64,000 bases of DNA from NCBI RefSeq assembly GCF_020510565.1, contig NZ_CP075189.1, positions 62,001-126,000 on the forward strand, given 5' to 3'. The notes under the pieces were generated by a model that was given only the letters and a program-made list of their open reading frames with translations, was not told the DNA's origin and made no database searches. The number at the start of each line of letters is the position of its first letter. Position 1 is the stretch's first letter. This document shows, in pieces, positions 280-64,000 of this stretch. This stretch comes from Ferribacterium limneticum (lineage in GTDB: Bacteria > Pseudomonadota > Gammaproteobacteria > Burkholderiales > Rhodocyclaceae). A program made the position numbers and the translations under genes.

Positions 280-1826
280 ACCCTGCCGAGCGCGACCCCG
301 CCGCCCGCAGCCGCCTGATCGGCGCGCTGGCCACGCTGGTCGTCCTCTGGCCGCTCTTTCAGGCTGCCGAGGTCAAGCCCGGTGTGTTGTTCGATCCGGG
401 CAACCTCAAGGTCATCGGCAACTTCCTGGCCGGCTTCCTGCCGCCCGAAACCGGCGCCGAGTTCATGGGCTATCTGGCCAAGGCAACGCTCGAAACCCTG
501 GCCATCGCCACGGCCGGCATGGCGCTGGCCTTCCTGATCGCCGTGCCGATGGGCTATCTGGCGACCGGCGCCGGGCGCGAGCAGCCGACGCTCAACCCCG
601 TCACGCGCAGCCTGCTGACTATCCTGCGCGGCATCCCCGAGCTGGTCTGGGCCCTCGTTTTCGTCCGCGTCTTCGGCCTCGGCCCGGCGGCCGGCGTGCT
701 GGCGCTGGGCCTGACTTACGGCGGCATGCTGGCCAAGGTCTATGCCGAAATTCTCGAATCGGTCGATGCCGCCCCAGCCCGGGCGCTCCGCCACAACGGC
801 GCCGGCCGGCCGCTGGCCATCCTCTATGGGCTGATCCCGCAGGCCTCGAAGGAGCTGGCCTCGTATACGGTCTATCGCTGGGAATGCGCCATCCGCGCCT
901 CGGTGGTGATGGGCTTCGTCGGCGCCGGCGGCCTCGGCCAGCTCATGGATCAGGCCATGAAAATGCTCAACGGCGGCGAAGCGGCGACCATCCTGTTTGC
1001 CTTCATGGTCCTCGTTTTCGCCGCCGACGGTTTCTCGGGCTGGCTGCGCCGGGCCCTCGACACACCGCCGGCCAACCGCGCCTCGCCCTTCGGCTGGCGT
1101 AGCGGCGGGCTCGGGCTGGTGCTGGTCGTCAGCATCGTCGCCAGCTTCAATTATTTGGAAATTGGCCTGAAATCCCTGTTGACCGTGGAAGCCGCCCGCA
1201 GCATTGGCGAATTCGTCGCCGGCTTCTTTCCGCCCGATTTGTCGGCCGAGTGGCTGGCCAAGGTCGGCAAGGGCATCTGGGAAACGCTTGCCATCTCGGT
1301 TGTCGGCACCTTGCTCGCCGCCGTCGCCGGCCTGCTGCTGGCGCTACCGAAATGGCGGGCGCCGTTCAGCTTCCTGCTCAACACCCTGCGCTCGGTGCCG
1401 GAACTCGTCTGGGCCACCATCACCGCGCTGGCCGTCGGCCTCGGCCCTTTCGCCGGCGCGCTGGCCTTGGCCCTGCACACAACCGGCGTCCTCGGTCGCC
1501 TCTACGCCGAAGCCCTCGACAACGCCCCGCCGACCCCCGGCCTGGCCCTGCGTCTGGCCGGCGCTCCGGGCGGCTTCGCCTTCCTCTACGGCACCTTGCC
1601 CGGCGCCGCCCCGCAGCTCATCGCCTACACGCTCTACCGCTGGGAAATGAACATCCGCATGGCCGCCATCCTCGGCTTCGTCGGCGCCGGCGGGCTCGGC
1701 CAACTGCTTTATTTCGAACTCTCGCTGTTCCACCACGCCCAGGCATCGACGGTGATCATCGCCATGTTGCTGCTGTCGATTGCCGTCGATCAGGCCAGTG
1801 CGTGGTTGCGGCGAAAAATGCACTGA
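270..1826 (+). CDS. phnE: Tandem-fused PhnE-type ABC transporter permease
   Basis: Inner-membrane permease of about 518 residues, twice the usual PhnE length of roughly 260-280. It holds two consecutive permease domains. Each ends in the same EAA-loop signature: [14 protein letters not shown] near residue 215 and [14 protein letters not shown] near residue 470. Each also has a copy of the (S/T)(I/L)RG-IPELVWA / [10 protein letters not shown] motif. So one polypeptide probably supplies both halves of the channel. The ATG at 270 lies inside the end of the ATPase gene. The linker between the halves carries a copy of the dispersed motif (core 1175-1188), coding LLTVEAA. No substrate-binding protein is next door in the window; a distant PhnD-like gene lies at 26477-27331. 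Confidence 0.88.
1151..1190 (+). repeat. Dispersed motif, copy 1 (in phnE)
   Basis: Core at 1175-1188 reads CCTGTTGACCGTGG, preceded by two A/T tracts (TTATTTGGAAATT and GAAAT). It lies in the linker between the two permease halves, on the coding strand. Confidence 0.7.
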
Positions 1827-1842
1827 ACCTCGGAGATTTATC

Positions 1843-2196
1843 ATGCAAAACATCCTGATCATCATCAACGCCGCCCCCTATGGCAGCGAACGCTGTCTGT
1901 CCGCCCTGCGTCTGGCCACGGCCTTGGCCGGTAGCGACGCCAAGCCGGCGGTGCGCATTTTTCTGATGTCCGACGCCACGGTGCTTGGTTTGCCGAACCA
2001 GATCGACGGCGCCGGCAATGGGCTGCAGGGTATGGTCGAAGGGCTGGTCGGGCAGGGCGTCGACATCCGTCTGTGCCGGACCTGCGCGCTGGCCCGTGGT
2101 CTTGGCGAGTTGCCGTTGATTCCCGGTACTTCCATCGGCACGTTGGTCGAGCTGGCCGAGGCGACGCTGGCGGCGGACAAGGTGATCACCTTCTGA
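1843..2196 (+). CDS. DsrE-family small protein
   Basis: 117-residue cytosolic protein with the DsrE/DsrF-like fold: N-terminal beta strand ILIIINAAPYGSERC, then an alternating alpha/beta pattern and a conserved-looking Cys pair in CRTCALARG near residue 80. Family members act as sulfur carriers or in sulfur relay; that is family knowledge, and the substrate here is unknown. The start ATG at 1843 is preceded by GGAG at 1831-1834; an upstream in-frame ATG at 1780 lies inside phnE and has no such site. It follows phnE by 16 bp, so it is probably the last gene of that operon. Confidence 0.8.
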   Translation: MQNILIIINAAPYGSERCLSALRLATALAGSDAKPAVRIFLMSDATVLGLPNQIDGAGNGLQGMVEGLVGQGVDIRLCRTCALARGLGELPLIPGTSIGTLVELAEATLAADKVITF

Positions 2197-2213
2197 TTTC
2201 TCCTGGGCGAGCA

Positions 2214-2252
2214 TTTCATTTTTTGGCGTTTTTTCCGGTTGACCGTGGGAAT
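2214..2252 (+). repeat. Dispersed motif, copy 2 (intergenic)
   Basis: Near-perfect copy: tracts ATTTCATTTTTTGG and GTTTTTTCC, then core CCGGTTGACCGTGG at 2235-2248 followed by GAAT. It lies just after the DsrE gene and upstream of the fdn regulatory region. Confidence 0.85.
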
Positions 2253-2310
2253 AGCCTCGCTTTCGTAGCCGTCCAATCTGCTGGCAGGAAGGGCTTTTCG
2301 GGATGTTTCG

Positions 2311-2329
2311 GTGGGACAAAATGTCCCAC
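2311..2329. promoter_or_regulatory. Upstream activator palindrome 1 of the fdn operon
   Basis: Perfect inverted repeat GTGGGACAAAATGTCCCAC (8-bp arms, 3-bp spacer). Its centre is 29 bp from a second copy and about 120 bp upstream of the transcription start predicted from the sigma54 promoter. Two phased copies at this distance fit binding of a sigma54 enhancer-binding protein. The regulator is not identified. Confidence 0.75.
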
Positions 2330-2342
2330 CTTCGCCGACCAT

Positions 2343-7127: not shown

Positions 7128-7166
7128 GGGGGCTCTGCAGAGAACATTCTGCAACCCCCGTTTTTT
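7128..7166 (+). terminator. Rho-independent terminator after fdnI
   Basis: Stem GGGGG...TGCAGA pairs with TCTGCA..CCCCC (7149-7159), followed by G and six T. A second hairpin (GCCACCACCC with GGGGTGATGGC) lies upstream at about 7071-7103 without a T run. Confidence 0.75.
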
Positions 7167-7198
7167 CAATTTTGGGCAAAATTTCCGGTTGAGCGCGC
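7161..7198 (+). repeat. Dispersed motif, copy 3 (degenerate, intergenic)
   Basis: A/T tracts TTTTTTCAATTTTGG and CAAAATTTCC are intact, but the core at 7185-7198 is decayed to CCGGTTGAGCGCGC. It overlaps the T run of the fdn terminator. Confidence 0.55.
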
Positions 7199-7227
7199 CC
7201 CGAAGGAAGTCCCCTTGGGGGATAGCA

Positions 7228-8213: not shown

Positions 8214-9611
8214 ATGAACGAAAACAAACGACTTCCCGCGGTCGACCGCGTCCTGCAGCAACTTTCCGCAGCCATTGAAATCTACGGCCGTCAGCTTGTC
8301 ACCGGCTGCGTTCGCGCCGAACTGGCCGCCGCCCGTGAAGGCTTGAAACATGGCCTGCCATTGCCGGAAGAAGCAGCCCTGCTTGCGGCTATCCGCCGCC
8401 GTGCCGACGATGCCGGCCGGGCCAATTTGCGCGCCGTCTTCAACCTGACCGGCACGGTCCTGCACACCAACCTCGGCCGCGCCCAACTGGCCGAAGAGGC
8501 CATCGCCGCCATGGTCGAAGCCGCCCGCTCACCGTGTGCGCTGGAATACGACCTGGCCTCCGGCGGGCGCGGCGACCGCGATGATCTGGTGTCCGGTCTG
8601 CTCGCCGAGTTGATCGCTGGCGGTGATCCGAATGTCGCCGCCACCATCGTCAACAACAACGCCGCCGCCGTGCTGCTGACCCTCAACGCGCTGGCCCAGG
8701 GCAAGGAGGCTGTCGTTTCCCGCGGTGAACTCGTCGAGATCGGCGGCGCTTTCCGCATTCCTGACGTAATGCGTCGGGCGCAGGTCAAGCTCCACGAAAT
8801 CGGCACGACCAACCGCACCCACGCCAAGGATTTTCAGGAAGCGATCAACGCCAAAACCGCGCTGCTCATGAAGATCCACACCAGCAATTACGCCGTCACC
8901 GGCTTCACGGCGGCAGTCGACGAGAAAGTCATCGCCGACATCGCCCACGCCGCCGGCCTGCCTTTCGTCATCGACCTCGGCAGCGGCACGCTGTGCGATT
9001 TCGCCGCTCACGGTCTGCCGGCCGAGCCGACGCCGCAGCAGGCACTGGCCGCCGGCGCCGACATCGTTACCTTCTCCGGCGACAAGCTGCTCGGCGGCCC
9101 GCAGGCCGGGCTCATCGTCGGCCGCAAGGACTTGATCGCGAAGATCAAGAAGAACCCGCTCAAACGCGCCCTGCGTGTCGGCAAGACGACGCTGGCGGCG
9201 CTCGAAGCGACCTTGCGCCTGTACCGCGACCCGGACCGCCTGGCCGAACGCCTGCCGACCTTGCGCCTGCTGACCCGTTCCGTCGCCGAGATCACCGCGC
9301 TGGCCGAGCGCATCCAGCCCGCCGTGCAAGCCGTCATCGGCCAACAGGCCACGGTCAGCGTCGAAGCGTGCAGCAGCCAGATCGGCAGCGGCGCCTTGCC
9401 GGTCGAACGCCTGCCCTCGGCGGCGCTGGTCATCCGGCCCAATTTCAAAAAAGCCGGAAAATTCCTGTTGACCGTGGAAGCCGCCTTCCGCAGCCTGCCG
9501 ACGCCGGTCATCGGCTACATCCGCGACGATGCCTATCATCTCGATCTGCGCTGTCTCGAAGCGAAGGATGAAGCCCGCTTCGTCGAGCAATTGCAGTATC
9601 TGAAATTTTGA
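8214..9611 (+). CDS. selA: L-seryl-tRNA(Sec) selenium transferase
   Basis: PLP enzyme that converts Ser-tRNA(Sec) to Sec-tRNA(Sec) with selenophosphate. About 465 residues. Conserved blocks include INLTGT-type [44 protein letters not shown], and the PLP-lysine loop [13 protein letters not shown] near residue 290. ATG 8214 is preferred; GTG 8205 is in frame with it. It serves the Sec codon in fdnG. A copy of the dispersed motif lies in its C-terminal domain (core 9464-9477), coding FLLTVEAAF. selD, needed to make selenophosphate, is not in the window. Confidence 0.96.
9441..9479 (+). repeat. Dispersed motif, copy 4 (in selA)
   Basis: Core CCTGTTGACCGTGG at 9464-9477, with upstream tracts AATTTCAAAAAAG and GGAAAATT. 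Same variant core and reading frame as copy 1 in phnE (LLTVEAA). Confidence 0.72.
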
Positions 9612-12171: not shown

Positions 12172-14045
12172 TCATCGGCACCGCCGGCCACATCGACCAC
12201 GGCAAAACCACGCTGGTCAAAGCCCTGACCGGCGTCGACTGCGACCGCCTGAAGGAAGAGAAGGCGCGCGGCATCACCGTCGACCTCGGCTACGCCTACA
12301 CCGAAAAGCTCGGTTTCATCGACGTCCCCGGTCATGAAAAGCTCATCCACAACATGCTGGCTGGCGCCACCGGCATCGATTTCGCCCTGCTCGTCATCGC
12401 CGCCGACGACGGCCCGATGCCGCAGACCCGCGAGCATCTGGAAATCATCGAACTGCTCGGTATCCGGCGTGGCGCGGTGGCGCTGACCAAAATCGACGTT
12501 GCTACGGTCAACCGGAAAAATGAGGCAAAAACGGAAATTGCCGAACTGCTCGCTGGTACCGCGCTGGCTGATGCACCGATCTTCCCGGTCGCTGCCGTCA
12601 GCGGCGACGGCATCGCCGAGTTGCGCGCCCACCTCGAAGCCGCCGCGGCGGAGCAGGGCGAGCGCCTAGCAGCCGGCGGCTTCCGCCTCGCCATCGACCG
12701 TTGCTTCACGCTGTCCGGCGCCGGCACCGTCGTCACCGGCACGGCCTTCGCCGGCGCCGTCAAAGTCGGCGATCAGTTAATTCTCTCGCCGCCCAACAAG
12801 CCCGTCCGCGTGCGCAGCCTGCGCGTCCAGGATGCCCCGGCCGAATCCGGCCACGCCGGGCAGCGCATCGCGCTGGCGTTGAGTGGCGTCGAAAAGGCCG
12901 AGGTCGAACGCGGCCAGTGGATCGTCGCGCCCGGTCTGCACGCCCCGGCCCGCCGCTTCGATGCCAGAATCCGCGTCCTCTCCGGCCAGCCGGCGCTCAA
13001 GCACTGGACGCAGGTCCACCTCCACCTTGGCGCCGAAGATGTCCCGGCCCGCATCGCCCTGCTCGGCGCCGACGAGATCGCCCCGGGATTTGAAAATTGG
13101 GCGCAAATTGCCGTTGACCGTGAGATCGGCGCGCTGGCCGGCGACCGCTTCATCCTGCGCGACGCCGGCGCCCGCCACACCATCGGCGGCGGTATCGTCC
13201 TCGACATCTTCCCGCCCAGCCGCAAGAAAAGCAGCCCGGAACGCCTGGCCATGCTTGCCGCGCTGGCCGACGCCAACCCGGCGACGGCACTGCAATTGGC
13301 CGCCGAGCAACAGCCGGCCGGTGTTGACCTCGCTACCCACGCCCTGAACCGCAATCTCGACGCCAGCACGCTCAAAACGCTGTGCCAGCAACTGAAGCTC
13401 AAAGTTGTCGGCGCCACCGCCTTCGCCCCGAGCCGCTGGCAGGAACTCGAAGTCCGCCTGCTCGCCGCCATCGCCGCCGAACACGAGCGCGCCCCGGACC
13501 TCACCGGCGTCGAACGCGACCGCTTGCGCCGCCTGACCTTGCCAACGCTCTCCCGCCCGGCCTTCGACGCGCTGCTCGCCGCACCGCTGGCCGATGGCCG
13601 CATCGCCCAGACCAACGCCTGGCTGCACCTGCCCGAACATCGCGTCCAACTCGCCGCCGCCGACCGCGAGCTATGGCAAACGCTCAAGCCCTTGCTCGCC
13701 GCCGAACCCTACGCCCCACCCCGCGTCCGCGATATCGCCAAGGCCAGCGGCGTCGGCGAAGACAGCGTGCGCAACCTGTTCAAACGCATCGCCCGCCACG
13801 GCGACGCCTGGCCGGTGGCGCACGACCATTTTTTCACCGCCGAAGCCGTCGCCGAACTGGCCCGGAAGGTCGCCGCCCTCAATGAGCGCGACGGCTGCGC
13901 CCGCGCTGCCAGCCTGCGCGACGGGATTGGCGGCGGCCGCAAAGTCGCCATCCACATCCTCGAATTCTTCGACCGCATCGGCTACACTCGCCGCGTGCGC
14001 GATACCCATGTTTTGCGCGGGTCTCCGGAGCAATTCGGCTCATGA
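12168..14045 (+). CDS. selB: Selenocysteine-specific elongation factor
   Basis: GTPase that delivers Sec-tRNA(Sec) to UGA codons marked by a SECIS. 625 residues. G1 [10 protein letters not shown] near residue 7, G2 [11 protein letters not shown]3 [12 protein letters not shown], and G4 as TKID. EF-Tu-like domains follow, then winged-helix repeats in the last 230 residues that would bind the SECIS. The start ATG overlaps the MOSC stop (ATGA). Two copies of the dispersed motif lie inside it: one on the minus strand in the G domain (12502-12515) and one on the plus strand near residue 316 (13110-13123). tRNA-Sec begins 5 bp after its stop. Confidence 0.96.
12500..12540 (-). repeat. Dispersed motif, copy 5 (in selB, minus strand)
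   Basis: Reverse-strand core CCGGTTGACCGTAG at 12515-12502. The upstream tracts are CATTTTT and GTTTTTGCC. It codes [10 protein letters not shown] in SelB, just after the TKID motif. One of only three minus-strand copies. Confidence 0.75.
13088..13125 (+). repeat. Dispersed motif, copy 6 (in selB)
   Basis: Core variant GCCGTTGACCGTGA at 13110-13123, preceded by ATTTGAAAATTGG and GCAAATT. Codes QIAVDREI. Confidence 0.6.
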
Positions 14046-14050: not shown

Positions 14051-14146
14051 GGAAGGAATCGTTCCCCGGTGGGACGGACGGTCTTCAAAACCGTCAGGAC
14101 CTGTCAAACAGGTTTGGGTAGGTTCGACTCCTGCTTCCTTCCGCCA
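14051..14146 (+). tRNA. selC: tRNA-Sec (anticodon TCA)
   Basis: 96 nt with encoded CCA. The 8-bp acceptor stem GGAAGGAA (14051-14058) pairs with TTCCTTCC (14135-14142); discriminator G is followed by CCA. Anticodon stem GACGGT/ACCGTC with loop CTTCAAA puts TCA at 14085-14087. A long variable arm and the T-loop GGTTCGACTCC are present. Length and 8-bp acceptor stem are typical of bacterial selC. It sits directly after selB. Confidence 0.97.
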
Positions 14147-16052: not shown

Positions 16053-17237
16053 ACGCTGGTGGAGCAGGGCGGCCAGGCCGCCAAGCAGGAGCAGACCTGC
16101 CATGCCGAACGCCATGGTCAGGGTCGAACCCCACAGGGCCGGGACGATCAGTGCGGCGGACAGGCTGTTGAAGCCGGACTGGAAGAAAGTCTGGCAGGAG
16201 GCAGCGAGGCCGCGCTGGGCAGGAAAAGGGTCGAGGGCAAACAGGGTCAGACTTGGCATGGCCAGCGACATGCCGGTCGTGTAGACAAAGATCGGCATGA
16301 CGCTCCATGGCAACCCCGGTGGCAGCGTCAGGTTGAGGATCAGGTTGAAGCAGGCGGCGCTGCCCATGACCAGGTAGCCGAGCAATATCGTCCGGCTCGG
16401 CGTGATCTTGCCGGCCAGCCGGCCGGATAGCCCGGCCCCGACTACCATGCCGGCCATGGCAGGACCGAACAGCCAGAGAAAGCCGGTTTCCGGGACGCCG
16501 AGATGGGTCATCAGAAAGACCGGTGCCGACAGCACGTAGATGAAAAATCCACCGAAATTGAGCGACACCGCGGCGCAGGCAAACAGGAAGGGCGGCGAGG
16601 TCATGACCTTCAGGTAGGTGGCGCCGAGGTAGGCCGGGCGTAGCGACTGGCGTTTTTCCGGGGGCAGGGTTTCGGGCAGCAGTTTCCAGCAGGCCAGCCA
16701 CAATGCTGCGGTCGACACGACCAAAAAGGCAAAAACCGAACGCCAGCCAAACCAGCTTTGCAGCCAGCCGCCGATGACTGGCGCGATGGCCGGCGCCAGC
16801 GCGAACATCATGGTGATCTGCGACATCAGGCGCTGGGCCGGGGCGCCGTCGTACAGATCGCGGACGATGGCGCGACTGATGACGATGCCGGCACCAGCCG
16901 TCATGCCCTGCATGGCCCGCCAGAACCACAGGTGCTCGATGCGCGTCGCCAGCGTGCAGCCGGCAGAGGCGACGGCGAACAGGCCAACGGCGACGAGAAT
17001 CACGTTGCGCCGGCCGAAGCGGTCGGCAATCGCGCCGTGCCATAGCGTCATGACGGCGAACGAGAGCAGGTAAATGGACAGCGTCTGCTGAACTTCGAGC
17101 GGCGTGGCGTGCAGCTTCTCGGCTATTTCAGGGAAAGACGGCAGGTAGGTGTCGATCGAAAACGGCCCGAGCGCCGCCAGCGAGGCGAGCAGAATGGCGA
17201 TGCCGCGCGTCTCGCGCCGGGTCTGGTGCTCACCCAC
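16032..17237 (-). CDS. Bcr/CflA-family MFS drug-resistance transporter
   Basis: Inner-membrane exporter of 401 residues with about 12 hydrophobic helices. DTYLPSFPEIA near residue 28 and IADRFGRRNVIL near residue 70 are the Bcr/CflA and MFS motif A signatures. The start is GTG at 17237, inside the end of yifB (8-bp overlap), which gives the family length of about 400; the longer reading frame upstream is a shadow of yifB. Confidence 0.88.
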   Translation of the reverse strand: MGEHQTRRETRGIAILLASLAALGPFSIDTYLPSFPEIAEKLHATPLEVQQTLSIYLLSFAVMTLWHGAIADRFGRRNVILVAVGLFAVASAGCTLATRIEHLWFWRAMQGMTAGAGIVISRAIVRDLYDGAPAQRLMSQITMMFALAPAIAPVIGGWLQSWFGWRSVFAFLVVSTAALWLACWKLLPETLPPEKRQSLRPAYLGATYLKVMTSPPFLFACAAVSLNFGGFFIYVLSAPVFLMTHLGVPETGFLWLFGPAMAGMVVGAGLSGRLAGKITPSRTILLGYLVMGSAACFNLILNLTLPPGLPWSVMPIFVYTTGMSLAMPSLTLFALDPFPAQRGLAASCQTFFQSGFNSLSAALIVPALWGSTLTMAFGMAGLLLLGGLAALLHQRLRLKPR

Positions 17238-18726
17238 GGGCGAAACGTCGATACTGGATGGCTTCGGCGACGTGGGCGGCGCGAATGTCGTCGCAGGCGG
17301 CCAGGTCGGCAATGGTTCGCGCGACTTTGAGGATGCGGTGCCAGGCGCGGGCCGACAGGTCGAGCTGGGTCGTTGCCTGTTGCAGCAACTTGTTGCCGGT
17401 TGCGTCGGGTTGGCAGTCGGCATCGACTTCCTTGGTGCTCAGCCGGGCGTTTGGTTTCTGTTGCCGGGCCTGCTGGCGATTCTGGGCATGCTCGACGCGG
17501 GCGCGAACGGTCGCTGACGATTCGCCATCGGCCTTGCCGGCGAGGCTTTCGGCAAGCAGCGCGGGAACTTCGATGATCAGGTCGATGCGGTCGAGGAAGG
17601 GTCCGGAGAGCTTGCCGCGATAGCGGGCAATCTGGTCCGGCGAGCAGCGGCATTTGCCTTTCGACGATCCATGATGCCCACATGGACACGGATTCATTGC
17701 CGCGATGAGCTGGAATTCGGCCGGAAACTCGGCCTGCCGGGCGGCGCGGGCGATATGGACGCGCCCGGATTCGAGCGGTTCGCGCAGGGTTTCGAGGACT
17801 TTCCGGTCAAACTCGGGCAGTTCATCCAAAAACAGAATGCCTTGATGCGCCAGGCTGATTTCGCCGGGCCGTGGCGGGTTGCCGCCACCGACCAGCGCTA
17901 CGGCGGAGGCGGTGTGGTGCGGCTGGCGGTAAGGGCGAACGCCGAAGGCTTCCGGTCGGAACTGGCCGACCAGCGACAGCACGGCAGCCGACGATTTGGC
18001 CGCTTCGCCCTGCAAGGCCGGCATGAGGCCGGGCAGACGGGCGGCGAGCATGGATTTGCCGGAGCCGGGCGGGCCGACCATCAATAAGGAATGGTTGCCA
18101 GCGGCAGCGATTTCCAGCGCCCGCTTGGCCTGCGACTGGCCGCGAACCTCAGCAAGGTCTGCGAAAATTGGCTGATTTTCCGGGTTGACCGTGGCAATCG
18201 CCTGCGGCAACGACTCACGCTCGGCGAGGTGGGCGCAGACATCGAGCAGCGAGCGGGCGGAGAGTATTTCATTGCTGCCGATCAGCGCAGCTTCGCGGGC
18301 GCTGGCTTCGGGCAGGATGAAATGCTTGCCGTGCCCTGCCGTTTGCAAGGCCATGGCGAGTGCACCGCGAATCGGGCGCAGTTCGCCGGACAGCGACAAC
18401 TCGCCGGCAAATTCATAATCGGCCAGATGCTTGCCGGGAATCTGCCCGCTGGCAGCGAGGATGCCGAGGGCGATGGGCAGGTCAAAACGGCCGGATTCTT
18501 TCGGTAGGTCGGCTGGTGCCAGATTTACCGTAATTCGTTTGGACGGAAACTCGAAGCCGGAATTGACGATGGCGGCGCGAACGCGGTCACGCGCTTCCTT
18601 GACTTCGGTATCCGGCAAGCCGACGAGGGTGAAGCTGGGCAGGCCACTGGCCAGATGAGCCTCGACAGTCACCGGCGGCGCGTTCAGGCCATCCAGTCCT
18701 CGACTGTGCGCGATGGCCAGTGCCAC
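17230..18726 (-). CDS. yifB: YifB-family magnesium-chelatase-like AAA+ ATPase
   Basis: 498 residues. N-terminal Lon-protease-like domain (VEAHLASGLPSFTLVGLPDTEVKEARDR begins near residue 20), Walker A GPPGSGKSML near residue 222, Walker B ILFLDELPEF near residue 300, and a Cys cluster NPCPCGHHGSSKGKCRC. Homologues are the ComM/YifB group; ComM is a helicase that aids branch migration of incoming DNA during natural transformation. A dispersed motif copy sits in the linker between the two domains (core 18181-18194). Confidence 0.92.
   Translation of the reverse strand: MALAIAHSRGLDGLNAPPVTVEAHLASGLPSFTLVGLPDTEVKEARDRVRAAIVNSGFEFPSKRITVNLAPADLPKESGRFDLPIALGILAASGQIPGKHLADYEFAGELSLSGELRPIRGALAMALQTAGHGKHFILPEASAREAALIGSNEILSARSLLDVCAHLAERESLPQAIATVNPENQPIFADLAEVRGQSQAKRALEIAAAGNHSLLMVGPPGSGKSMLAARLPGLMPALQGEAAKSSAAVLSLVGQFRPEAFGVRPYRQPHHTASAVALVGGGNPPRPGEISLAHQGILFLDELPEFDRKVLETLREPLESGRVHIARAARQAEFPAEFQLIAAMNPCPCGHHGSSKGKCRCSPDQIARYRGKLSGPFLDRIDLIIEVPALLAESLAGKADGESSATVRARVEHAQNRQQARQQKPNARLSTKEVDADCQPDATGNKLLQQATTQLDLSARAWHRILKVARTIADLAACDDIRAAHVAEAIQYRRFARG
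18161..18198 (+). repeat. Dispersed motif, copy 7 (in yifB)
   Basis: Tracts GAAAATTGG and GATTTTCC, then GGGTTGACCGTGG (to 18194) followed by CAAT. Relative to the gene it is reversed and codes IATVNPENQ. Confidence 0.78.
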
Positions 18727-21945: not shown

Positions 21946-21986
21946 CATTTCAGTTTTGGCGGTTTTTTCCGGTTGACCGTGGGATT
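21946..21986 (+). repeat. Dispersed motif, copy 8 (intergenic)
   Basis: Tracts CATTTCAGTTTTGG and GGTTTTTTCC with the perfect core CCGGTTGACCGTGG at 21969-21982. It lies between the amtB terminator and the converging isochorismatase-like gene. Confidence 0.85.
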
Positions 21987-27503: not shown

Positions 27504-27543
27504 GATTTTGTTTTCGGGCATTTTTTCCGGTTGACCGTGGGAT
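27504..27543 (+). repeat. Dispersed motif, copy 9 (intergenic)
   Basis: Tracts GATTTTGTTTTCGG and CATTTTTTCC with the perfect core CCGGTTGACCGTGG at 27527-27540, followed by GAT. It lies between two divergent genes. Confidence 0.85.
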
Positions 27544-27665
27544 AGGGCAATGTATTCCGCTGTTGAGCCGGGGTACTACTTTCTTTTGGCCAAGATTGAA
27601 TATCCGGACTAGGATGTACGAGTGAATTGACTCATTTTCAGGCAACCCGTTCAGGAGAAAAGCTC

Positions 27666-28217: not shown

Positions 28218-30125
28218 TCAATCGGCCGATGGCAAGGCCTCAAGCGCCTCATGCACTTCGAGCCAGCGCATTTCGGCTTCGTCGATCTGCTCGCCGAGCA
28301 GGCCGGCCTGCTTGTGCATTTCCTCGCTTTTTACCCGGTCGACCGTGGCATAGAAGTCCGGGTCGGCGAACTGCGCGTCGAGCGCCGCTTTTTCCTCATT
28401 CCACTTCGCCAGCTTGCGCTCCAGCTGCTCGATCTCCTTGATCAGCGGCCGGCGTTGGGCCAGCAGGGCCTGCCGGTTGGCTTTGGCATCGGCGCGTAGT
28501 GCCAGTCGTTCCGACTTCTCGGCAGCAACGTCCGCCTCCGGCGCCTTTTCGGCATTGCGCTGGGCGGCCAGCCAGGCGGCGTAGTCGTCGAGGTCGCCTT
28601 CGAATTCCGTGACCTTGCCGTCCGCAACCAGCAGCAGTTCGTCGGCGCAGGTGCGCAGCAGGTGGCGGTCGTGCGAGACGAAGACGACGCCGCCTTCGAA
28701 ATCCTGCATGGCGAAGGTCAGGGCTTCGCGCATTTCGAGGTCGAGGTGGTTGGTCGGTTCGTCGAGCAGCAGCAGGTTGGGCTTGGTGCGAATGAGCAGG
28801 GCCAGCGCCAGGCGGGATTTTTCGCCGCCGGAGAAGGGTTCGATGGCGCGGGTGGCCATGTCGCCACGGAAATCGAAGCCGCCGATGTAGTCGCGCAGTT
28901 CCTGTTCGGTGGCCATCGGGTCGAGGCGGACGAGGTGTTGCAGCGGCGATTCGTCGGGGCGCAGTTGTTCGAGCTGGTGCTGGGCGAAGTAGCCGATGTT
29001 GAGGGCCTTGGCTTCCTTGCGCTCGCCGCCTTGCTGGGGAATTGAATTGGCCAGCAGTTTGATCAGCGTCGATTTTCCGGCGCCGTTGCGGCCGAGGAGG
29101 CCGATCCGGCAGCCGGGGCGCAGCGTCATGGTGACGTGGTCGATGATTTTGTGATCGGCATAGCCGGCCGAGGCTTTTTCGATGCTCAGCAGCGGGTCGG
29201 GCAGGGCGGTCGGCTGGCGGAAGGCGAAATGGAAGGGCGAGTCGACGTGGGCGGCGGCGACCATTTCCATGCGCTCCAGCGTCTTGATCCGGCTTTGCGC
29301 CTGGCGGGCCTTGGTGGCTTTAGCTTTGAAGCGTTCGATGAAGCTCGACAGGTGGGCGATTTCGCGCTGCTGGGCTTCGTAGGACGACTGCTGGGTGGCG
29401 AGTCGGGCGGCGCGGGCGCGTTCGTAGTCGCTGTAGCCGCCGCTGGTCAGCGTCAGGCGCTGGAGGTCGATGGCGATGATCTGGCCGACAACGGCGTCGA
29501 GGAAGTCGCGGTCGTGGGAGATCAACAGCAGCGTGGCCGGCGTGTTCTTGAGCCAGTTTTCGAGCCAGAAGACGGCGTCGAGGTCGAGGTGGTTGGTCGG
29601 TTCGTCGAGCAGCAGGAGGTCGGCGCGGCAGGAGAGGGCGCGGGCGAGATTGAGGCGGACGCGCCAGCCGCCGGAGAATTCAGCGACCGAACGCTGAAAA
29701 TCGGCGTCGGTGAAGCCCAGCCCGTGCAGCACTTCGGCGACGCGGGCCTTGGCCGAGTAGCCGCCGATGTCGGCATAGCGAGCGTGCAGGTGGCCGATGG
29801 CGACACCGTCGCCGCTGGCTTCGGCATCGACCAGTTCGCGCTCGATGCGGCGCAGTTCGACGTCGCCGTCGAGGACGAAATCGATGGCGGCGTCGGGCAG
29901 GGCCGGGGTTTCCTGCGCGACGCGGGCGATGTGCCAGCTGGCCGGGATTTCGACGTTGCCCGACTCGGCGTGGAGTTCGTTGGCGAGCAGCGCGAAGAGG
30001 CTGGATTTGCCGCAGCCGTTGGCGCCGACAACGCCGACTTTCCAGCCGGGGTGCAGTTGAACAGAGGCGTCGATGACGAGCGGACGGCCGGCGCGGGCGA
30101 AGGTGACTTGGCGGAGGGCGATCAT
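28218..30125 (-). CDS. ABC-F family ATP-binding protein (YheS-like)
   Basis: 635 residues with two ABC ATPase domains and no membrane segment. First Walker A GANGCGKSS near residue 38 and second GRNGAGKST near residue 350. Signatures are FSGGWRVRL and FSGGEKSRL, with LLLDEPTNHLDL twice. A linker of charged helices joins them, and there is a C-terminal coiled coil. ABC-F proteins act on the ribosome. ATG 30125 (MIALRQVTF) fits the family N-terminus; a longer frame upstream has no support. A dispersed motif copy lies in the C-terminal coiled coil. Confidence 0.93.
   Translation of the reverse strand: MIALRQVTFARAGRPLVIDASVQLHPGWKVGVVGANGCGKSSLFALLANELHAESGNVEIPASWHIARVAQETPALPDAAIDFVLDGDVELRRIERELVDAEASGDGVAIGHLHARYADIGGYSAKARVAEVLHGLGFTDADFQRSVAEFSGGWRVRLNLARALSCRADLLLLDEPTNHLDLDAVFWLENWLKNTPATLLLISHDRDFLDAVVGQIIAIDLQRLTLTSGGYSDYERARAARLATQQSSYEAQQREIAHLSSFIERFKAKATKARQAQSRIKTLERMEMVAAAHVDSPFHFAFRQPTALPDPLLSIEKASAGYADHKIIDHVTMTLRPGCRIGLLGRNGAGKSTLIKLLANSIPQQGGERKEAKALNIGYFAQHQLEQLRPDESPLQHLVRLDPMATEQELRDYIGGFDFRGDMATRAIEPFSGGEKSRLALALLIRTKPNLLLLDEPTNHLDLEMREALTFAMQDFEGGVVFVSHDRHLLRTCADELLLVADGKVTEFEGDLDDYAAWLAAQRNAEKAPEADVAAEKSERLALRADAKANRQALLAQRRPLIKEIEQLERKLAKWNEEKAALDAQFADPDFYATVDRVKSEEMHKQAGLLGEQIDEAEMRWLEVHEALEALPSAD
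28318..28350 (+). repeat. Dispersed motif, copy 10 (in the ABC-F gene)
   Basis: Core variant CCGGTCGACCGTGG at 28335-28348, with tracts ATTTCC and CTTTTTA. Reversed relative to the gene; codes YATVDRVKS. Confidence 0.65.
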
Positions 30126-30183: not shown

Positions 30184-30222
30184 AATTCCACGGTCAACCG
30201 GAAAAATCGGCAAAATTTGAAA
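30184..30222 (-). repeat. Dispersed motif, copy 11 (intergenic, minus strand)
   Basis: Reverse-strand perfect core CCGGTTGACCGTGG at 30201-30188, with upstream tracts GATTTTT and CAAATTTTGCC. It lies in the promoter region between the divergent ABC-F and HD-GYP genes. Confidence 0.85.
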
Positions 30223-30292
30223 CATTACAAAGGCTTGCCGCGCCTTTCAGTCATTTTGGCTACGCTTTGCGACAGCCTGCTAGAATCACCGC

Positions 30293-34886: not shown

Positions 34887-36017
34887 TCAGCCGGCTGCCG
34901 GCAGAACGATCTCGACGAGCAGCCCGGGGCTGCCGTCGGATTTCATTTTTGCAGTAATTTTCCCGTTGACCGTAGCAATCACCTGCCGGGCAATCGCCAG
35001 CCCCAGACCATAGCCGTCGCCCGTCGCCAGATTCCGCCCGCGATAAAACGGGGTGAAAATCGCCTCCAGTTCGGCTTCCGGCACACCGATGCCCTGATCG
35101 GCGATGCCCAGGTGGATCAAGCCGTCAGCTTCCCGTTTCGCCGCGATCTGCAGGCTTGTTCCGGCCGGCGAAAAGCGTAGCCCGTTGCGCACCACGTTCT
35201 CGATGGCCCGGTGCAGCAACTCCGGATTGGCCTGCACGAACAGCCCCGGCGCCGCCACGAAGTCGACGCCAACCTGCTCGGCCACGCCCTCAAAGCGCGC
35301 ATCCTCGACGATCCCCGCCAGCAATTCGCCCAGATCAAGCTTCTCCAACGGGCCTGAAACGCCCGCCTCCAGCCGGGACAGCGTCAGCAACTCGCCGATC
35401 AGCCCGTTCATGCGTTCGCCCTCGCGCTCGATGCGCGCCAGCGTATCCTCAACCCGCCCCGGCTGCTGGCGGGCCAGGCCAATGGCCGCCTGCAGGCGGG
35501 CCAGCGGCGAGCGCATTTCGTGCGAAACATCATGCAGCAGGTGTTTCTGAGCCGCCATCAAGGCCTGCAGGCGCTCGGCCATGCGGTCGAAATCCTGGCC
35601 CAGATCGGCCAGTTCGTCGCGCCGGCCGCCCATGGCGCCGCCCACCCGGGTATCGAGATCACCCTCGGCCGCCGTGGCGAAGGCATTGCGCAGGTGGCGA
35701 ATCGGCTTGGCGAAATACCAGGCCACGCCGGCCGCACAGAGCAGGCTGGCGATCAGGGCAGCGATCATGGGAAATAGCGGCAGCCGGCCACCCGGTCGCT
35801 TGTCGTCGGGCGACGGCGGGCGATGGGGCGGTCCGCCTCGATCGAACTCCATCGGCGGCGGCCGGTGCTCGTCAAAATCAGGCCGCGGCGGAGGTGGGCG
35901 ATCAGCCCGCATCGGCGACTGCTGGCGCTCGAACCAGAAGAATGTTCCGGTGCCGACCACGGCTGCCACCTGGCCGAGCCAGATGAAGAGAAAGAACTTC
36001 CAGAACAGGCGTCCCAT
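34887..36017 (-). CDS. cpxA: CpxA-like sensor histidine kinase
   Basis: 376 residues. N-terminal membrane helix, a short Pro/Arg/Asp-rich periplasmic loop (about residues 30-75), second helix, HAMP, H-box LLHDVSHEMRSPLARLQAAI near residue 165, N-box ENVVRNGLRFSP and G-box YGLGLAIARQVI. Much smaller periplasmic part than E. coli CpxA. It starts 1 bp after the response regulator. A dispersed motif copy is in the last part of the ATPase domain. Confidence 0.88.
   Translation of the reverse strand: MGRLFWKFFLFIWLGQVAAVVGTGTFFWFERQQSPMRADRPPPPRPDFDEHRPPPMEFDRGGPPHRPPSPDDKRPGGRLPLFPMIAALIASLLCAAGVAWYFAKPIRHLRNAFATAAEGDLDTRVGGAMGGRRDELADLGQDFDRMAERLQALMAAQKHLLHDVSHEMRSPLARLQAAIGLARQQPGRVEDTLARIEREGERMNGLIGELLTLSRLEAGVSGPLEKLDLGELLAGIVEDARFEGVAEQVGVDFVAAPGLFVQANPELLHRAIENVVRNGLRFSPAGTSLQIAAKREADGLIHLGIADQGIGVPEAELEAIFTPFYRGRNLATGDGYGLGLAIARQVIATVNGKITAKMKSDGSPGLLVEIVLPAAG
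34940..34979 (+). repeat. Dispersed motif, copy 12 (in cpxA-like gene)
   Basis: Core CCCGTTGACCGTAG at 34962-34975, with tracts ATTTCATTTTTG and GTAATTTT. Reversed relative to the gene; codes IATVNGKITAKM. Confidence 0.7.
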
Positions 36018-40573: not shown

Positions 40574-41175
40574 TCGCCCCAGCGCTGCATCAGCGTGTGC
40601 GGCACGCCGATCTGGTCGAGGATGCGGGCGACGACGAAATTGACGATGTCCTGGACGTTTTGCGGATGGTGGTAGAAGCCCGGGCTGGGTGGCAGGATGA
40701 CGACGCCGGCGCGGGAGAGGCGCAGCATGTTTTCGAGGTGGATGGCCGAGAACGGCGTTTCGCGCGGCACCAGCACGAGCTTGCGGCCTTCTTTCATGAC
40801 GACGTCGGCAGCGCGTTCGATGAGGTTGTCGGCCAGGCCCTGGGCGATGGCGGCCAGGGTGCCCATCGAGCACGGGCAGACGACCATGGCGTCGGGCGGG
40901 TTGGAGCCGGAGGCGACCGGGGCGAACCATTCTTCGCGGCCGAAAACGGCGAGGTTTTCCGGGTTGACCGTGGGAAAGCGGGCGAGCAGGGCGGCTTTGG
41001 CCTCGGACGGGCGCGACGGCAGCTCGAAATCCAGTTCCTGTTTGGCGACGACTTGCGATGCCTGCGAATAGAGCAACTGCACCTTGCAGCCGGCGTCAAG
41101 CAGGCATTCGAGCAGGCGCAGGCCGTAGGGCATGCCAGAGGCACCGGTCAGCGCGAGGCAAATCGTTTTAGGCAT
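40570..41175 (-). CDS. ubiX: Flavin prenyltransferase
   Basis: 201 residues. Makes the prenylated FMN used by UbiD decarboxylase in ubiquinone synthesis. ALTGASGMPYGLRLLE at the N-terminus, CPCSMGTLAAIAQGLADNLIERAADV near residue 92, and LVLVPRETPFSAIHLENML. It overlaps the LON-domain gene. A dispersed motif copy codes FPTVNPENLAVF near residue 68. Confidence 0.95.
   Translation of the reverse strand: MPKTICLALTGASGMPYGLRLLECLLDAGCKVQLLYSQASQVVAKQELDFELPSRPSEAKAALLARFPTVNPENLAVFGREEWFAPVASGSNPPDAMVVCPCSMGTLAAIAQGLADNLIERAADVVMKEGRKLVLVPRETPFSAIHLENMLRLSRAGVVILPPSPGFYHHPQNVQDIVNFVVARILDQIGVPHTLMQRWGE
40943..40977 (+). repeat. Dispersed motif, copy 13 (in ubiX)
   Basis: GAGGTTTTCC then GGGTTGACCGTGG (to 40973) followed by GAAA; the distal tract is poor (GAAAACGG). 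Same CCGGGTTGACCGTGG variant as in yifB. Confidence 0.68.
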
Positions 41176-42080: not shown

Positions 42081-42120
42081 ATTTCGATTTTGGCCATTAT
42101 TTCCGGTTGACCGTGGAATT
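42081..42120 (+). repeat. Dispersed motif, copy 14 (intergenic)
   Basis: Tracts ATTTCGATTTTGG and CATTATTTCC, perfect core CCGGTTGACCGTGG at 42103-42116, then AATT. Between rapZ and the NusG-II gene. Confidence 0.85.
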
Positions 42121-48411: not shown

Positions 48412-49313
48412 TCGGACCTGGCACAAAGGGCCCGGCCGGCTTTGGCGCCATTCGGGCGGTTGATGGCGCTGGAAATCCAGTCGCCGACAATTGCCAGTTT
48501 AGCCAGATCGATGCCGGTTTCAATGCCCATGCCTTGCAATAGATAAACAACGTCCTCAGTCGCCACGTTGCCGGAGGCGCCTTTGGCGTAGGGACAGCCG
48601 CCGAGGCCGGCGATCGAGCTGTCGAAGACGGCCATGCCCATCTGCAGTGAGGCGTAGATGTTGGCGACAGCCATGCCGTAGGTGTCGTGGTAATGGCCGG
48701 CCAGTTTTTCGATGGGGAGGAGTTTGGCGCAGGCTTCGATCAGGCGTTTGATGGAAGCCGGATTGCCGACGCCGATGGTGTCGCCGAGCGAGACTTCGTA
48801 ACAACCCATGTCGAACAGGGTTTTGGCGACTTCGGCAGCTTTTTTCGGGTCGATGGCGCCTTCATACGGACAGCCGACGACGCAGGAAACGTAGCCGCGG
48901 ACCGGAATTTCCAGTGCCGAGGCAGCCGAAACGATGGGTTCGAAGCGTTTCAGGCTCTCGGCAATCGAGCAATTGATGTTTTTTTGGGAAAAAATCTCGG
49001 AGGCAGCGCCGAAAATGGCGACTTCGGTCGCGCCGGCTTCAATGGCCGCATCAAAACCTTGCAAATTTGGCGTTAAAACCGGGTAGACCGTAGCAGCGTG
49101 GCGTTTGATGCCGCGCATGACCGCCGCGTTGTCGCCCATCTGCGGCACCCATTTTGGCGAGACGAAGGAGGTCGACTCGATGACGCGCAGGCCGACATCG
49201 GCCAGGCGTTCGATCAGTTCGATCTTGATCGCCGTCGGGACCACCTGCGCCTCATTCTGCAACCCGTCGCGCGGGCCGACTTCGACGATTTTTACCTTGC
49301 TGGGCAGCTTCAT
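48408..49313 (-). CDS. liuE: Hydroxymethylglutaryl-CoA lyase
   Basis: 301 residues. Last step of leucine breakdown: HMG-CoA to acetoacetate and acetyl-Co[15 protein letters not shown] at the N-terminus, [13 protein letters not shown], the GDTIGVGNP metal-site block and the catalytic-Cys loop [24 protein letters not shown] near residue 265. Same direction as liuD with 47 bp between, which hold a hairpin. A weak motif-like stretch (49066-49093) is too decayed to count. Confidence 0.94.
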
Positions 49314-52406: not shown

Positions 52407-52435
52407 CGGTAAGGCGTCCACGCTGAGCCAGTGGA

Positions 52436-52474
52436 TTTCATTTTTGGGCTTTTTTTCCGGTTGACCGTGGGAAT
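52436..52474 (+). repeat. Dispersed motif, copy 15 (between the inverted repeat copies)
   Basis: Tracts ATTTCATTTTTGGG and CTTTTTTTCC with perfect core CCGGTTGACCGTGG at 52457-52470, then GAAT. The closest match to the consensus in the window. Confidence 0.88.
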
Positions 52475-52762: not shown

Positions 52763-53386
52763 TCATTTAGAAACCCCCCTCCCCCGAATCAACCCAGCCA
52801 TCGGCTGCCCATCCAACGCCGCAATCAAACTCGCCTGATTAGCCGCCGGCTGATTCTGGCTAACCTTCCATTTCCCGACCAAGCGGTCGATGGCAATCTC
52901 AATCCCGACAATCGCCCCCAGCATCTTCCCGATGTAATCAGCCGGCGCATCATCAACCGCCCACGGACGTGGTAACCCGGCTTCGTGCTCAGCGGTCAGC
53001 GCATGCAACTGGGCCAAAAGCCACTCAGCATCGTCGATCAGGCGCAACTCGCCGTAGGCATGCACCGCCGTGTAATTCCAGGTTGGCACCACCTTGCCGT
53101 GCTCGGCCTTGGTGGCGTAGCCGGACGGGCTGATGTAGCAATCCGGACCTTTGAAAATAACGAGAATTTTCCGGTTGACCGTGGCATCAGCGGCCAGCGG
53201 ATTGGCCCGCGCAACGTGGCCGCGCAAGGTGCCGTTCGGGCCAGCGCTCGCGTCCAGATGCAACGGGATGTGGTTAGCCTCCAGCCCCTCCGCACCCTGC
53301 GTGACGACCGTGGCGAGCGGAAAGGCGCGCATCAGCTCGTGCATGACGCCGATGTCAGTTTCCGCAAAATGCTTGGGCAGATACAT
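52763..53386 (-). CDS. paiB: PaiB-family FMN-binding protein
   Basis: 207 residues with the FMN-binding split-barrel fold of PaiB: MYLPKHFAETDIGVMHELM, ANHIPLHLD, and CYISPSGYATKAEHGKVVPTWNYTAVHAYGEL near residue 83. Annotated in Bacillus as a negative regulator of protease and sporulation genes; in proteobacteria the role is unclear. It separates liuB from liuC. A dispersed motif copy codes DATVNRKILVIFKG, immediately before the conserved CYIS block. Confidence 0.88.
   Translation of the reverse strand: MYLPKHFAETDIGVMHELMRAFPLATVVTQGAEGLEANHIPLHLDASAGPNGTLRGHVARANPLAADATVNRKILVIFKGPDCYISPSGYATKAEHGKVVPTWNYTAVHAYGELRLIDDAEWLLAQLHALTAEHEAGLPRPWAVDDAPADYIGKMLGAIVGIEIAIDRLVGKWKVSQNQPAANQASLIAALDGQPMAGLIRGRGVSK
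53151..53187 (+). repeat. Dispersed motif, copy 16 (in paiB)
   Basis: Tracts TTGAAAATAACG and GAATTTTCC with perfect core CCGGTTGACCGTGG at 53171-53184. Reversed relative to the gene. Confidence 0.82.
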
Positions 53387-56299: not shown

Positions 56300-56340
56300 A
56301 ATTTCATTTTTAGGGTTTTTTTCCGGTTGACCGTAGCAAT
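56300..56340 (+). repeat. Dispersed motif, copy 17 (intergenic)
   Basis: Tracts ATTTCATTTTTAGG and GTTTTTTTCC, core CCGGTTGACCGTAG at 56323-56336, then CAAT. A partial reverse core, GCTACGGTCAATTTC, begins about 30 bp before it (56291). Confidence 0.85.
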
Positions 56341-62107: not shown

Positions 62108-62138
62108 GGTTTGTCTCCGTTATCGATTTATTTTTGAA

Positions 62139-62681: not shown

Positions 62682-62700
62682 AGGTGGTGATTGTATTTAC

Positions 62701-62718
62701 GTTGACGTTAACGTCAAC
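62701..62718. promoter_or_regulatory. LiuR operator (perfect palindrome) of the liu operon
   Basis: GTTGACGTTAACGTCAAC is perfectly symmetric. On the minus strand it overlaps a TTGACG -35 box spaced 16 bp from TACAAT. MerR-family activators bind such sites between the boxes, and LiuR is encoded immediately upstream. Confidence 0.82.
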
Positions 62719-62735
62719 TAAAGATCAAACATTTT

Positions 62736-63128
62736 TTACGGGGCGTCGCGACGAGCCAGTTCCTGTTCGCACTGGCGCTCGAATTCCGAGATTTCGGCCA
62801 GCATCGCCTCAATGTCCTCGCGCTGCTGTTCCAGCGCGGCACGGCGCTTTTCCATGACGCGCAGGCATTCGAGCAATTGCGGCGTTTCGTCCTCGGTCGA
62901 CGCGTACATGCCGATCAGGTCTTTTATTTCGGCCAGCGACAGGCCGAGGCGCTTGCCGCGCAGGGCCATCTTGAGGCGCGCCCGGTCACGGCGGGTGAAG
63001 ACGCGCTTGCTGCCTTCGCGCTCGGGCGAGAGGATGCCCTGGTCTTCCCAGAAGCGGATGGTGCGCGGCGTGATGCCGAACTCGCGGGCGAGGTCGGAAA
63101 TGGCAAAGGTGGTGGCCGTCTGGCTCAA
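62736..63128 (-). CDS. liuR: MerR-family regulator of leucine/isovalerate degradation
   Basis: 130 residues. Helix-turn-helix with ISDLAREFGITPRTIRFWEDQGIL at the N-terminus and FTRRDRARLKMALRGKRLGLSLAEIKDLIGMY; a C-terminal coiled coil (MEKRRAALEQQREDIEAML) for dimer formation. This matches LiuR, which controls liu genes in many proteobacteria. It stands at the head of the minus-strand liu region, with the palindromic operator just downstream of its stop. Confidence 0.9.
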   Translation of the reverse strand: MSQTATTFAISDLAREFGITPRTIRFWEDQGILSPEREGSKRVFTRRDRARLKMALRGKRLGLSLAEIKDLIGMYASTEDETPQLLECLRVMEKRRAALEQQREDIEAMLAEISEFERQCEQELARRDAP

Positions 63129-63228
63129 ATCAGTCTCCTCAAGGTGCGGCCAAGTTAAACAGATGCGAGGGGTTTTTTCAATCCGCTACCGTATGGTAAG
63201 TTGTTCGCCTTGATCTCAAGGTTTGCCC

Positions 63229-64000
63229 ATGCCCCTGCATTTTCCCCACGCCCATCCGCCGGCAGCCGGCGAACTGACCGAAGTCGCGCCCGGCGTTTTC
63301 TGGCTGCGCATGCCGCTGCCCTTCCAACTTGACCACATCAATCTCTGGCTGCTCCGTGACGGCGCCGGTTGGGTCATCGTCGATACCGGCTTTCCGGATG
63401 ATGCGGTGCGTGCGATGTGGACGCAAATTCTGGAAAAACTCGACGGCCCGGTGACGCGCCTGATCGTCACCCATTTTCATCCCGATCATCTCGGGTTGGC
63501 TACCTGGCTTATGGAAAAGACCGGGGCGCCCTTGTCGATGACGACCGGCGAGTTCCTGACGGCCCATGCGGTGTGGCACGAGGTGGCCGGGCATGGCGCG
63601 CGTTTCATGGTCGAACAGTTCCGCCAGCACGGGCTGGATGGGGAGCATCTGGCCAAGTTCGAGAAGCGTGGTTCCGGTTACCGCAAGGCTGTCCCGGCCC
63701 TGCCGGAATATTATGACCGCCTGAAGATCGGTGACATTGCCACGGTCGACGGGAAAAATTGGCAAATTTTGATAGGTCATGGTCACGCTCCGGAACATAT
63801 GGCGCTTTACTGCGTCGAACTCGGCGTGTTAATTTCGGGCGACATGCTTTTGCCGAGAATTTCGACCAATATCAGCGTTTTTGCCGCAACCCCCAAGGCT
63901 GATGCATTACGCTGGTTTCTCGAGTCATTGGACGAAATGGCTGGTGAAATTCCGGACGAAACACTGGTATTGCCTTCGCACGGGTTGCCCTTCACAGGGA
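63229..64000 (+). CDS. MBL-fold metallo-hydrolase (3' end beyond window)
   Basis: Frame open from ATG 63229 to the window edge, 257 residues visible. Zinc motif VTHFHPDHLG near residue 81 (HxHxDH), later His in IGHGHAPEH near 186 and Asp in VLISGDML near 206, then LPSHGLPF, so the site is complete. Substrate unknown. A minus-strand dispersed motif copy codes IATVDGKNWQI near residue 172. Divergent from liuR. Confidence 0.88.
   Translation, partial: MPLHFPHAHPPAAGELTEVAPGVFWLRMPLPFQLDHINLWLLRDGAGWVIVDTGFPDDAVRAMWTQILEKLDGPVTRLIVTHFHPDHLGLATWLMEKTGAPLSMTTGEFLTAHAVWHEVAGHGARFMVEQFRQHGLDGEHLAKFEKRGSGYRKAVPALPEYYDRLKIGDIATVDGKNWQILIGHGHAPEHMALYCVELGVLISGDMLLPRISTNISVFAATPKADALRWFLESLDEMAGEIPDETLVLPSHGLPFTG
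63736..63778 (-). repeat. Dispersed motif, copy 18 (in metallo-hydrolase, minus strand)
   Basis: Reverse-strand core CCCGTCGACCGTGG at 63753-63740, tracts AATTTTT and CAAAATTTGCC. Third minus-strand copy. Confidence 0.7.

Follow-up and report, generated by a model that had tools for sequence, protein, structure and literature searches.

What function could maintain a motif of about 40 bp at hundreds of places in one bacterial genome, inside genes as well as between them? The question is raised by the window, a stretch of 64,000 nucleotides (positions 62,001 to 126,000 of contig NZ_CP075189.1) in which a core, CCGGTTGACCGTGG, recurs together with two phased A/T tracts. The initial annotation described this dispersed motif and listed an uptake sequence, a segregation mark and a recombination signal among its candidate roles. 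The motif is real, strong and genome-wide, and it is probably a repeat undescribed so far. Judged from its sequence and distribution, it is likely (probability of about 0.8) to be a DNA uptake sequence, a self-tag that would bias natural transformation towards same-species DNA.

The abundance of the motif far exceeds that in control sequences. With up to three mismatches allowed, the core occurs 33 times in the window compared with a mean of 9.86 in shuffled sequences, and none of 100 shuffles reaches 33; seven copies are exact. These counts, and the flanks described below, bear out the dispersed motif as it was first proposed. The source genome, here G000, is a single contig of 4.15 Mb of which the window is a part. 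A genome-wide count had been named beforehand as the test by which the motif could fail, and it returned 287 exact copies of the 14-mer (147 forward and 140 reverse) compared with two for the reversed control (0 + 2). A dialect-free pattern of the architecture, WWWWNNNNNNWWWWWNNNNNTYGACCG, has 667 copies in G000 and one when reversed. A 42-column matrix was refined on the same 464-kb sample that it scans, consisting of the window and 20 stretches of 20 kb spread across the genome. Above 20 bits the matrix detects 101 sites, and lowering the threshold to 8 bits brings the total to 107, only six more, while three fourth-order Markov sequences of the same length contain 0, 1 and 0 sites above 8 bits, none above 16, and the reversed sequence contains none above 8. 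With few intermediate scores and near-empty controls, the sites are cleanly separated from background. Perfect core copies and those with one mismatch number 34 each, compared with 0 and 0 for the reversed core. The density of ∼0.22 per kb extrapolates to ∼900 copies per genome. Within the window, 21 sites exceed 20 bits, compared with the 18 copies counted in the initial annotation. No motif site has an Rfam match.

Constraint covers positions of about −22 to +17 relative to the core, as estimated from the 34 exact-core sites in the 464 kb, and conservation is absent from letters outside the matrix columns. The extended consensus is ATTTCAWTTTnGGCCnWTTTTT-CCGGTTGACCGTGG-nAAT, in which a ATTTCATTTTTGG-like tract is followed after about one turn by TTTTTT, the core, and then mostly nA(A/T)T. 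The A/T tracts are positioned at −6..−1 and about −17..−12, with centers ∼11 bp apart. In the orientation used for uptake sequences, the motif reads nTn-CCACGGTCAACCGG-AAAAAA-nGGCC-AAAWWTGAAAT, a 14-bp core and then two A/T segments one helical turn apart. The inner core GGTYGACC is near-palindromic and includes GTYGAC, a HincII/SalI-type sequence.

This design resembles that of the Pasteurellaceae uptake signal sequence (USS), whose Hin and Apl types combine a short core with two A/T segments at a spacing of about one turn, as passages of PMC1626085 describe. Both motifs place the core before two A/T segments about one helical turn apart, occur in many copies in both orientations, and have subclades with their own dialect. 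They differ in their letters, as the USS cores AAGTGCGGT and ACAAGCGGT each have 0 copies in the 464 kb of G000, in the length of the core (14 bp compared with 9 bp), and in the host, a betaproteobacterium rather than a gammaproteobacterium. The suggestion that the window carries the layout of the Pasteurellaceae signal in a different sequence is thus upheld. The DNA uptake sequence (DUS) of the Neisseriaceae shares with the present motif the presence of dialects in one clade, of some members without an obvious one, and of dyad-like forms in some species. Unlike the DUS, the consensus here lacks a CTG core, and GCCGTCTGAA has 0 copies in the 464 kb; the DUS has no flanking A/T motifs (PMC1626085, in its comparison of the two families), whereas the present motif has them. 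The DUS dialects are read by the receptor ComP within the Neisseriaceae (PMC3630211, in part), while the ComP_DUS-family pilin is not conserved here between species with the same core. According to the portion of PMC2397512 that treats it, the DUS is also strongly conserved, is missing from genes acquired recently and has a spacing like that of conversion fragments. Dialects are known in both families (PMC3630211 and PMC1626085, both in part).

The motif is largely confined to one genus, in which its letters vary. The exact 14-mer is nearly private to G000 among 249 family genomes, with 287 copies there, 0–11 in seven other sampled genus members and 0–2 in other genera. Across 76 genus genomes, the architecture pattern has at least 60 copies in 42, 27–51 in 4 and 0–19 in 30, with reversed controls at 0–7; some of these genomes are incomplete, while the motif-poor G249, G253, G265 and G297 are among the complete single contigs. 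Pattern copies number 0–6 in each of the 373 genomes of other genera among 395 from the family. The initial annotation had proposed a check of related genomes, and these display the same layout with changed letters: TYGACCG preceded by two A/T tracts that are spaced by one helical turn. The dialect CCGGTTGACCGTGG is present in G000 and G290. Word counts in the relatives' stretches reveal GTTGACCGCAG in G313, GTCGACCGTGA/G in G147 and G296, and, less firmly, GTCGACCGC in G252 and G254, as well as the form TTGACCGTGG in G290, G302 and G268. Dialect matrices for G252/G251, G254/G222 and G177 were seeded from only 6, 3 and 3 sites and are less certain. In G147, G296 and G240, some dialect copies form an almost perfect palindrome (TTTTCACGGTCGACCGTGAAAA) flanked by an A/T tract at either end, and such a site may work in both directions. 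A different motif in the motif-poor G253 (140 kb) and G297 (120 kb) was considered and rejected, since the A/T pattern is followed only by weak A/T-rich pentamers, in G253.

The closest named relative by ComM, among the best 80 loci, is Dechloromonas sp. H13 (G449) with 83% identity, in a list from which records very near the source genome may be absent. From this match we infer that the source genome belongs to the Dechloromonas genus, which is placed in Azonexaceae, Rhodocyclales. A ComM tree of 29 rows was built from 29 of the 44 genomes with ComM matches, out of 30 loci from which G297 was filtered; H13 has no motif count. Motif-rich and motif-poor genomes are intermixed in the tree, which requires at least five changes of motif state and gives no direction of change.

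The placement of the sites in the genome narrows the possible roles. Rough gene calls assign 78% of the sequence as coding and 22% as non-coding, and 47 of the 101 sites are intergenic compared with that 22% (p = 5.5e-8); convergent-gene gaps hold 12 of the 47. The remaining 54 are genic, 25 in one orientation and 29 in the other, and one frame predominates within each orientation (20/25 and 24/29), as expected from coding tolerance. In the window, the earlier split of 8 intergenic and 10 genic copies becomes 5 and 16 with the rough gene calls; the starts of the genes under three of the 16 genic sites (7185, 30201 and 56323) are doubtful, and moving them would restore 8 intergenic sites. The GC skew of the stretches indicates an origin close to coordinate 0 and a terminus close to 2.5 Mb; on this map the leading strand carries 57 of the 101 sites (p = 0.23), hence no strand polarity. 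The window itself is skewed, with 17 plus and 4 minus copies (p = 0.007), unlike the genome overall. The comparison with origin and terminus proposed by the initial annotation reveals no zone, either in 100 exact forward copies among the matches listed or in the 21 sampled stretches. Over the first 2.6 Mb, each 200 kb holds 5–11 of these forward copies, whose distances have a coefficient of variation of 0.96, near random, and each of the 21 stretches has a site. Site density increases with GC over the stretches (rho = 0.50, p = 0.02). No close pairs are present in the sample: the shortest of 80 neighbor gaps is 533 bp, while an estimated nine or so gaps below 533 bp would be expected from random scatter at the same density.

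Among other roles, binding sites of a chromosome-organizing or segregation protein (like matS/MatP, Noc, SlmA or parS/ParB), with protein and sites co-evolving into dialects, are the strongest competitor and yet unlikely. The many copies, the constraint over ∼38–40 bp, the intergenic enrichment and the near-palindromic GGTYGACC would suit such a protein, and phased A/T tracts could bend DNA. KOPS (FtsK-orienting polar sequences), Chi, matS and Noc-type signals are genome-wide repeats defined by polarity or a restricted zone; the present motif is likewise repeated genome-wide, but polarity or a restricted zone was not found, every sampled stretch having a site. The motif is moreover near background (0–19 copies) in 30 of the 76 genus genomes, some of them complete single contigs, and it would be rare for a housekeeping protein to be dispensable, or for its sites to be re-lettered at hundreds of places between close species. 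A role in transcription, as operators or promoters of a large regulon or as terminators, is very unlikely. The intergenic share and the T tracts agree with such elements, as do terminator-like pairs in G147 and G240, but more than half of the sites are inside genes in both orientations, the extrapolated copies approach 900, and close pairs in the G000 sample and Rfam matches are lacking. A polar signal for recombination or translocation, of the Chi or KOPS kind, has the high copy number and the copies inside genes in its favor but is more improbable still given a motif of ∼40 bp rather than an octamer, its intergenic enrichment, and the near-equal use of both strands. Both the segregation mark and the recombination signal of the initial annotation consequently fit worse than an uptake sequence.

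Comparison of the same places in related genomes reveals that sites are conserved, switched and eroded in place. The window sites were traced to syntenic stretches of thirteen relatives, H13 included. In the pooled motif-rich relatives G290, G268, G302, G262 and G291, the 11-bp core is 94.9% identical compared with 89.5% in the 240-bp flanks (p = 7e-6), a rough value since bases are treated as independent and the same site is counted in several relatives; separately, three of the five reach p < 0.05. Core conservation leans the same way in G277, G280 and G313, and G263 has too few sites for the comparison. The motif-poor genomes display the reverse, with core and flank identities of 61% and 83% in G265 (p = 3e-6) and 74% and 84% in G112 (p = 0.04). 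At position 28335, G000 reads CGACCGTGGC where G313 and H13 read CGACCGCAGC at the same gene position, so the dialect changed in place. Many genic sites (e.g. 1175, 9464, 16719, 28335, 34962 and 53171) align without gaps and differ by substitutions; several others, mostly intergenic, have gaps or short inserts. A small mobile repeat copied around the genome (a repetitive extragenic palindromic element (REP), a miniature inverted-repeat transposable element or similar) has dispersed, numerous copies, hairpin-like inverted pairs in some relatives and short palindromic inserts within some relatives' copies in its favor, but the gap-free genic alignments (the several gapped sites notwithstanding), the one main frame per orientation, the lack of letter conservation beyond the matrix columns and the dialect changes in place make it highly improbable. 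The short inserts inside motif copies of relatives are near-palindromic (CGCCCCGNAGGAAGTCCCCTTGGGGG; CCTGGGGCCAGCCGTAGTTTCYATGG; ACGCTTCGCGTAGTAAACCCGG-like). They are seen at window 7163-7230 and, by alignment with G313, G302 and G290, at window 12515, 13110, 21969 and 27527, as if a REP-like element targeted the motif.

The hundreds of copies with few intermediates, the dialects, the conservation and switching in place, the erosion, and the absence of close pairs, polarity or a zone match the signature described for uptake sequences, which is the candidate role that fits best. From this match we infer receptor binding, an uptake bias and a role of the A/T segments. A DNA receptor on the cell surface, on a type IV pilus or competence pseudopilus, would bind the core, and the two phased A/T segments may help the duplex to bend or open while passing the outer-membrane pore; kinking or melting of DNA at the pore has been proposed for the USS segments (PMC1626085 and PMC12616744, in the parts concerned with them). 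ComEC would then import one strand, to be recombined by DprA, RecA and ComM. If better-tagged fragments were taken up more often, recombination would spread and keep the tags genome-wide, a molecular drive under which near-perfect copies would number in the hundreds, intermediates would be few and sites would be conserved in place. Drift in receptor specificity would be followed by the sites and would create a new dialect, while the loss of specific uptake would let the sites decay.

It is fairly probable that the motif represents a third family of uptake sequences for self-recognition, one that evolved independently in environmental Rhodocyclales, converged on a USS-like design of a core plus phased tracts, diversified into species dialects within a single genus, underwent several gains or losses, and uses a receptor that is neither a ComP-family PilE nor FimT. 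Uptake sequences were unknown in other transformable bacteria as of 2006 according to the relevant passage of PMC1626085, and a 2025 paper names, in the text bearing on the subject, only the Pasteurellaceae and Neisseriaceae for self-specific uptake sequences (PMC12616744). No paper linking uptake sequences with Dechloromonas or Rhodocyclaceae was found in the open literature, a scope outside which preprints and most subscription papers fall.

Genes of the transformation machinery are near-universal in the genus. The comEC gene is detected in 71 of the 76 genomes and in all 51 of good quality, dprA in 75 and in 50 of the 51, and a comM match in all 44 genomes asked, some of them broken; comM encodes a natural-transformation helicase with a role in competence. 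G000 also carries type IV pilins; its 17 pilin-like genes include one PilE-type minor pilin that matches ComP_DUS (PF16732) with 88 bits. The PF16732 pilin is present in 70 of the 76 genomes, motif-poor species included. Broken comM or comEC genes occur in the motif-poor G255, G265 and G297: comM is split by ∼25 kb in G255 (G255:C1:513051-538061) and lacks residues 37–212 in G265 (G265:C1:67432-68379). Competence loss as the cause of motif loss is suggested by these three genomes but contradicted by G277 and G257, and was set aside.

Foreign DNA provides a further view of site distribution. In the motif-rich G277, comEC is split by a 33.7-kb low-GC island (contig C33:109609-143310) that encodes a large serine recombinase and type ISP restriction-modification. 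This single island has 0 sites, where the genome-wide pattern count of 563 in 4.2 Mb predicts ∼4.5. Around it there is one site immediately ahead, in the 5' part of comEC, and one past it, and 17 are found in 60 kb elsewhere. The comEC genes of G277 and G297 are split near the same point by islands of ∼32–34 kb (G297:C1:2218693-2251157), and that of G300 is interrupted near the same position, where contigs end. The islands splitting comEC may represent a mobile element that silences competence. Mobile DNA as the cause of the low-density stretches of G000 was rejected, as their gene content is unsupportive.

Several observations weigh against an uptake sequence. The density of ∼0.22 per kb is below that of USS and DUS, which is close to 1 per kb (PMC1626085, in its account of the two families). 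The island depletion comes from only one island, and the low-density stretches of G000 contain ordinary catabolic, flagellar and chemotaxis genes. In G286 and H13 (3 sites each), the core is conserved no better than the flank, and the clustering of motif state on the ComM tree is not significant, 62 of 500 shuffles being as low. The open literature yielded no uptake, binding or transformation data for the genus. Nearly all of the 76 genomes have comEC, dprA and the ComP_DUS-family pilin, which do not separate motif-rich from motif-poor genomes; the motif-rich G277 has a split comEC, and G257, with 152 sites, has a stop in comEC. The receptor was not found by presence or absence of pilin and competence genes in these genomes. 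The small pilin pair at 764 kb, present in 24 of the 76, is not conserved among same-core species, and PilE is only 35–39% identical between two forms of its operon, though all five genomes compared have the TTGACCGT(G/A)G core.

The receptor search discarded several candidates. By presence or absence, neither the PF16732 pilin nor DprA nor ComEC tracks the motif, and a PilE protein search, with matches in 52 of the 76 genomes, does not track it either; the small pilin pair was also rejected. The FimT-PilV-PilW-PilX-PilY1-PilE operon has one form in G000 and G262 and another in G290, G268 and G291, between which FimT matches over only ∼60 residues. Because same-core species differ so strongly in this minor-pilin operon, it was rejected as a likely source of specificity; the ComP-like PilE and FimT are poor receptor candidates, rejected without proof. 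The two divergent forms also differ in gene order (G000:C1:1628001-1642000 and G290:C1:3112001-3126000). Species with different operon forms have ComM proteins that are 97–99% identical, which suggests wholesale replacement of the operon.

The individual window copies are given here with their matrix scores and, where traced, the relatives that have the motif at the syntenic same place. Intergenic copies with an exact core occur on the plus strand at 2213..2252 (61.8 bits; G290, G268, G277 and G262), 21947..21986 (58.0 bits, between convergent genes), 27505..27544 (54.2 bits), 42081..42120 (61.0 bits) and 52435..52474 (62.8 bits, the highest in the window). Exact cores are also found at 30184..30223 on the minus strand, at a gene start or intergenic (57.1 bits), and within a gene at 53149..53188 on the plus strand (42.7 bits). 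The comM gene (17230..18726, minus strand; YifB-type Mg chelatase-like ATPase, TIGR00368) contains a motif at 18181, within a plus-strand copy at 18159..18198 (44.9 bits) that has another dialect in G313 and H13. An ABC-F gene carries the plus-strand copy at 28313..28352 (29.3 bits), in whose place G313 and H13 have the dialect CGACCGCAGC. The other genic copies on the plus strand are at 1153..1192 (39.1 bits; G290, G268 and G291), 9442..9481 (37.2 bits; G290, G268, G277, G302, G262, G313 and G291, eroded in G265), 34940..34979 (52.8 bits) and 49058..49097 (33.3 bits), with weak copies in mutY at 33981..34020 (22.6 bits) and in a gene at 40938..40977 (20.4 bits; TTGACCGCAGG in G313). On the minus strand, genic copies are at 16702..16741 (28.4 bits) and, as the variant CCCGTCGACCGTGG, at 63736..63775 (49.2 bits). 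The plus-strand copy at 7163..7202 (30.2 bits; TTGACCG in G302 and G262) has its core end altered to GAGCGCGC where a short insert-like sequence begins, and that at 56301..56340 (plus strand, 58.7 bits) is at a doubtful gene boundary. Two copies lie in selB, at 12498..12537 on the minus strand (53.1 bits) and at 13088..13127 on the plus strand (37.2 bits). The selB gene (12168-14045) is part of a selenocysteine set in the window, with a selenocysteine insertion sequence (SECIS) at a formate dehydrogenase gene (3061-3119) and tRNA-Sec (14051-14142).

The Pasteurellaceae and Neisseriaceae are mostly host-associated. A third case, in Dechloromonas-type betaproteobacteria, would test receptor bias and molecular drive against exchange among kin as the origin of the tags. 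If the uptake reading is true, the design of two phased A/T tracts can arise twice, which would suggest that the tracts act mechanically when duplex DNA crosses the outer membrane. The genus, with its several dialects and natural losses, would provide material for finding the receptor. A further prediction is that Dechloromonas-type bacteria, which are important in bioremediation and wastewater, are naturally competent.

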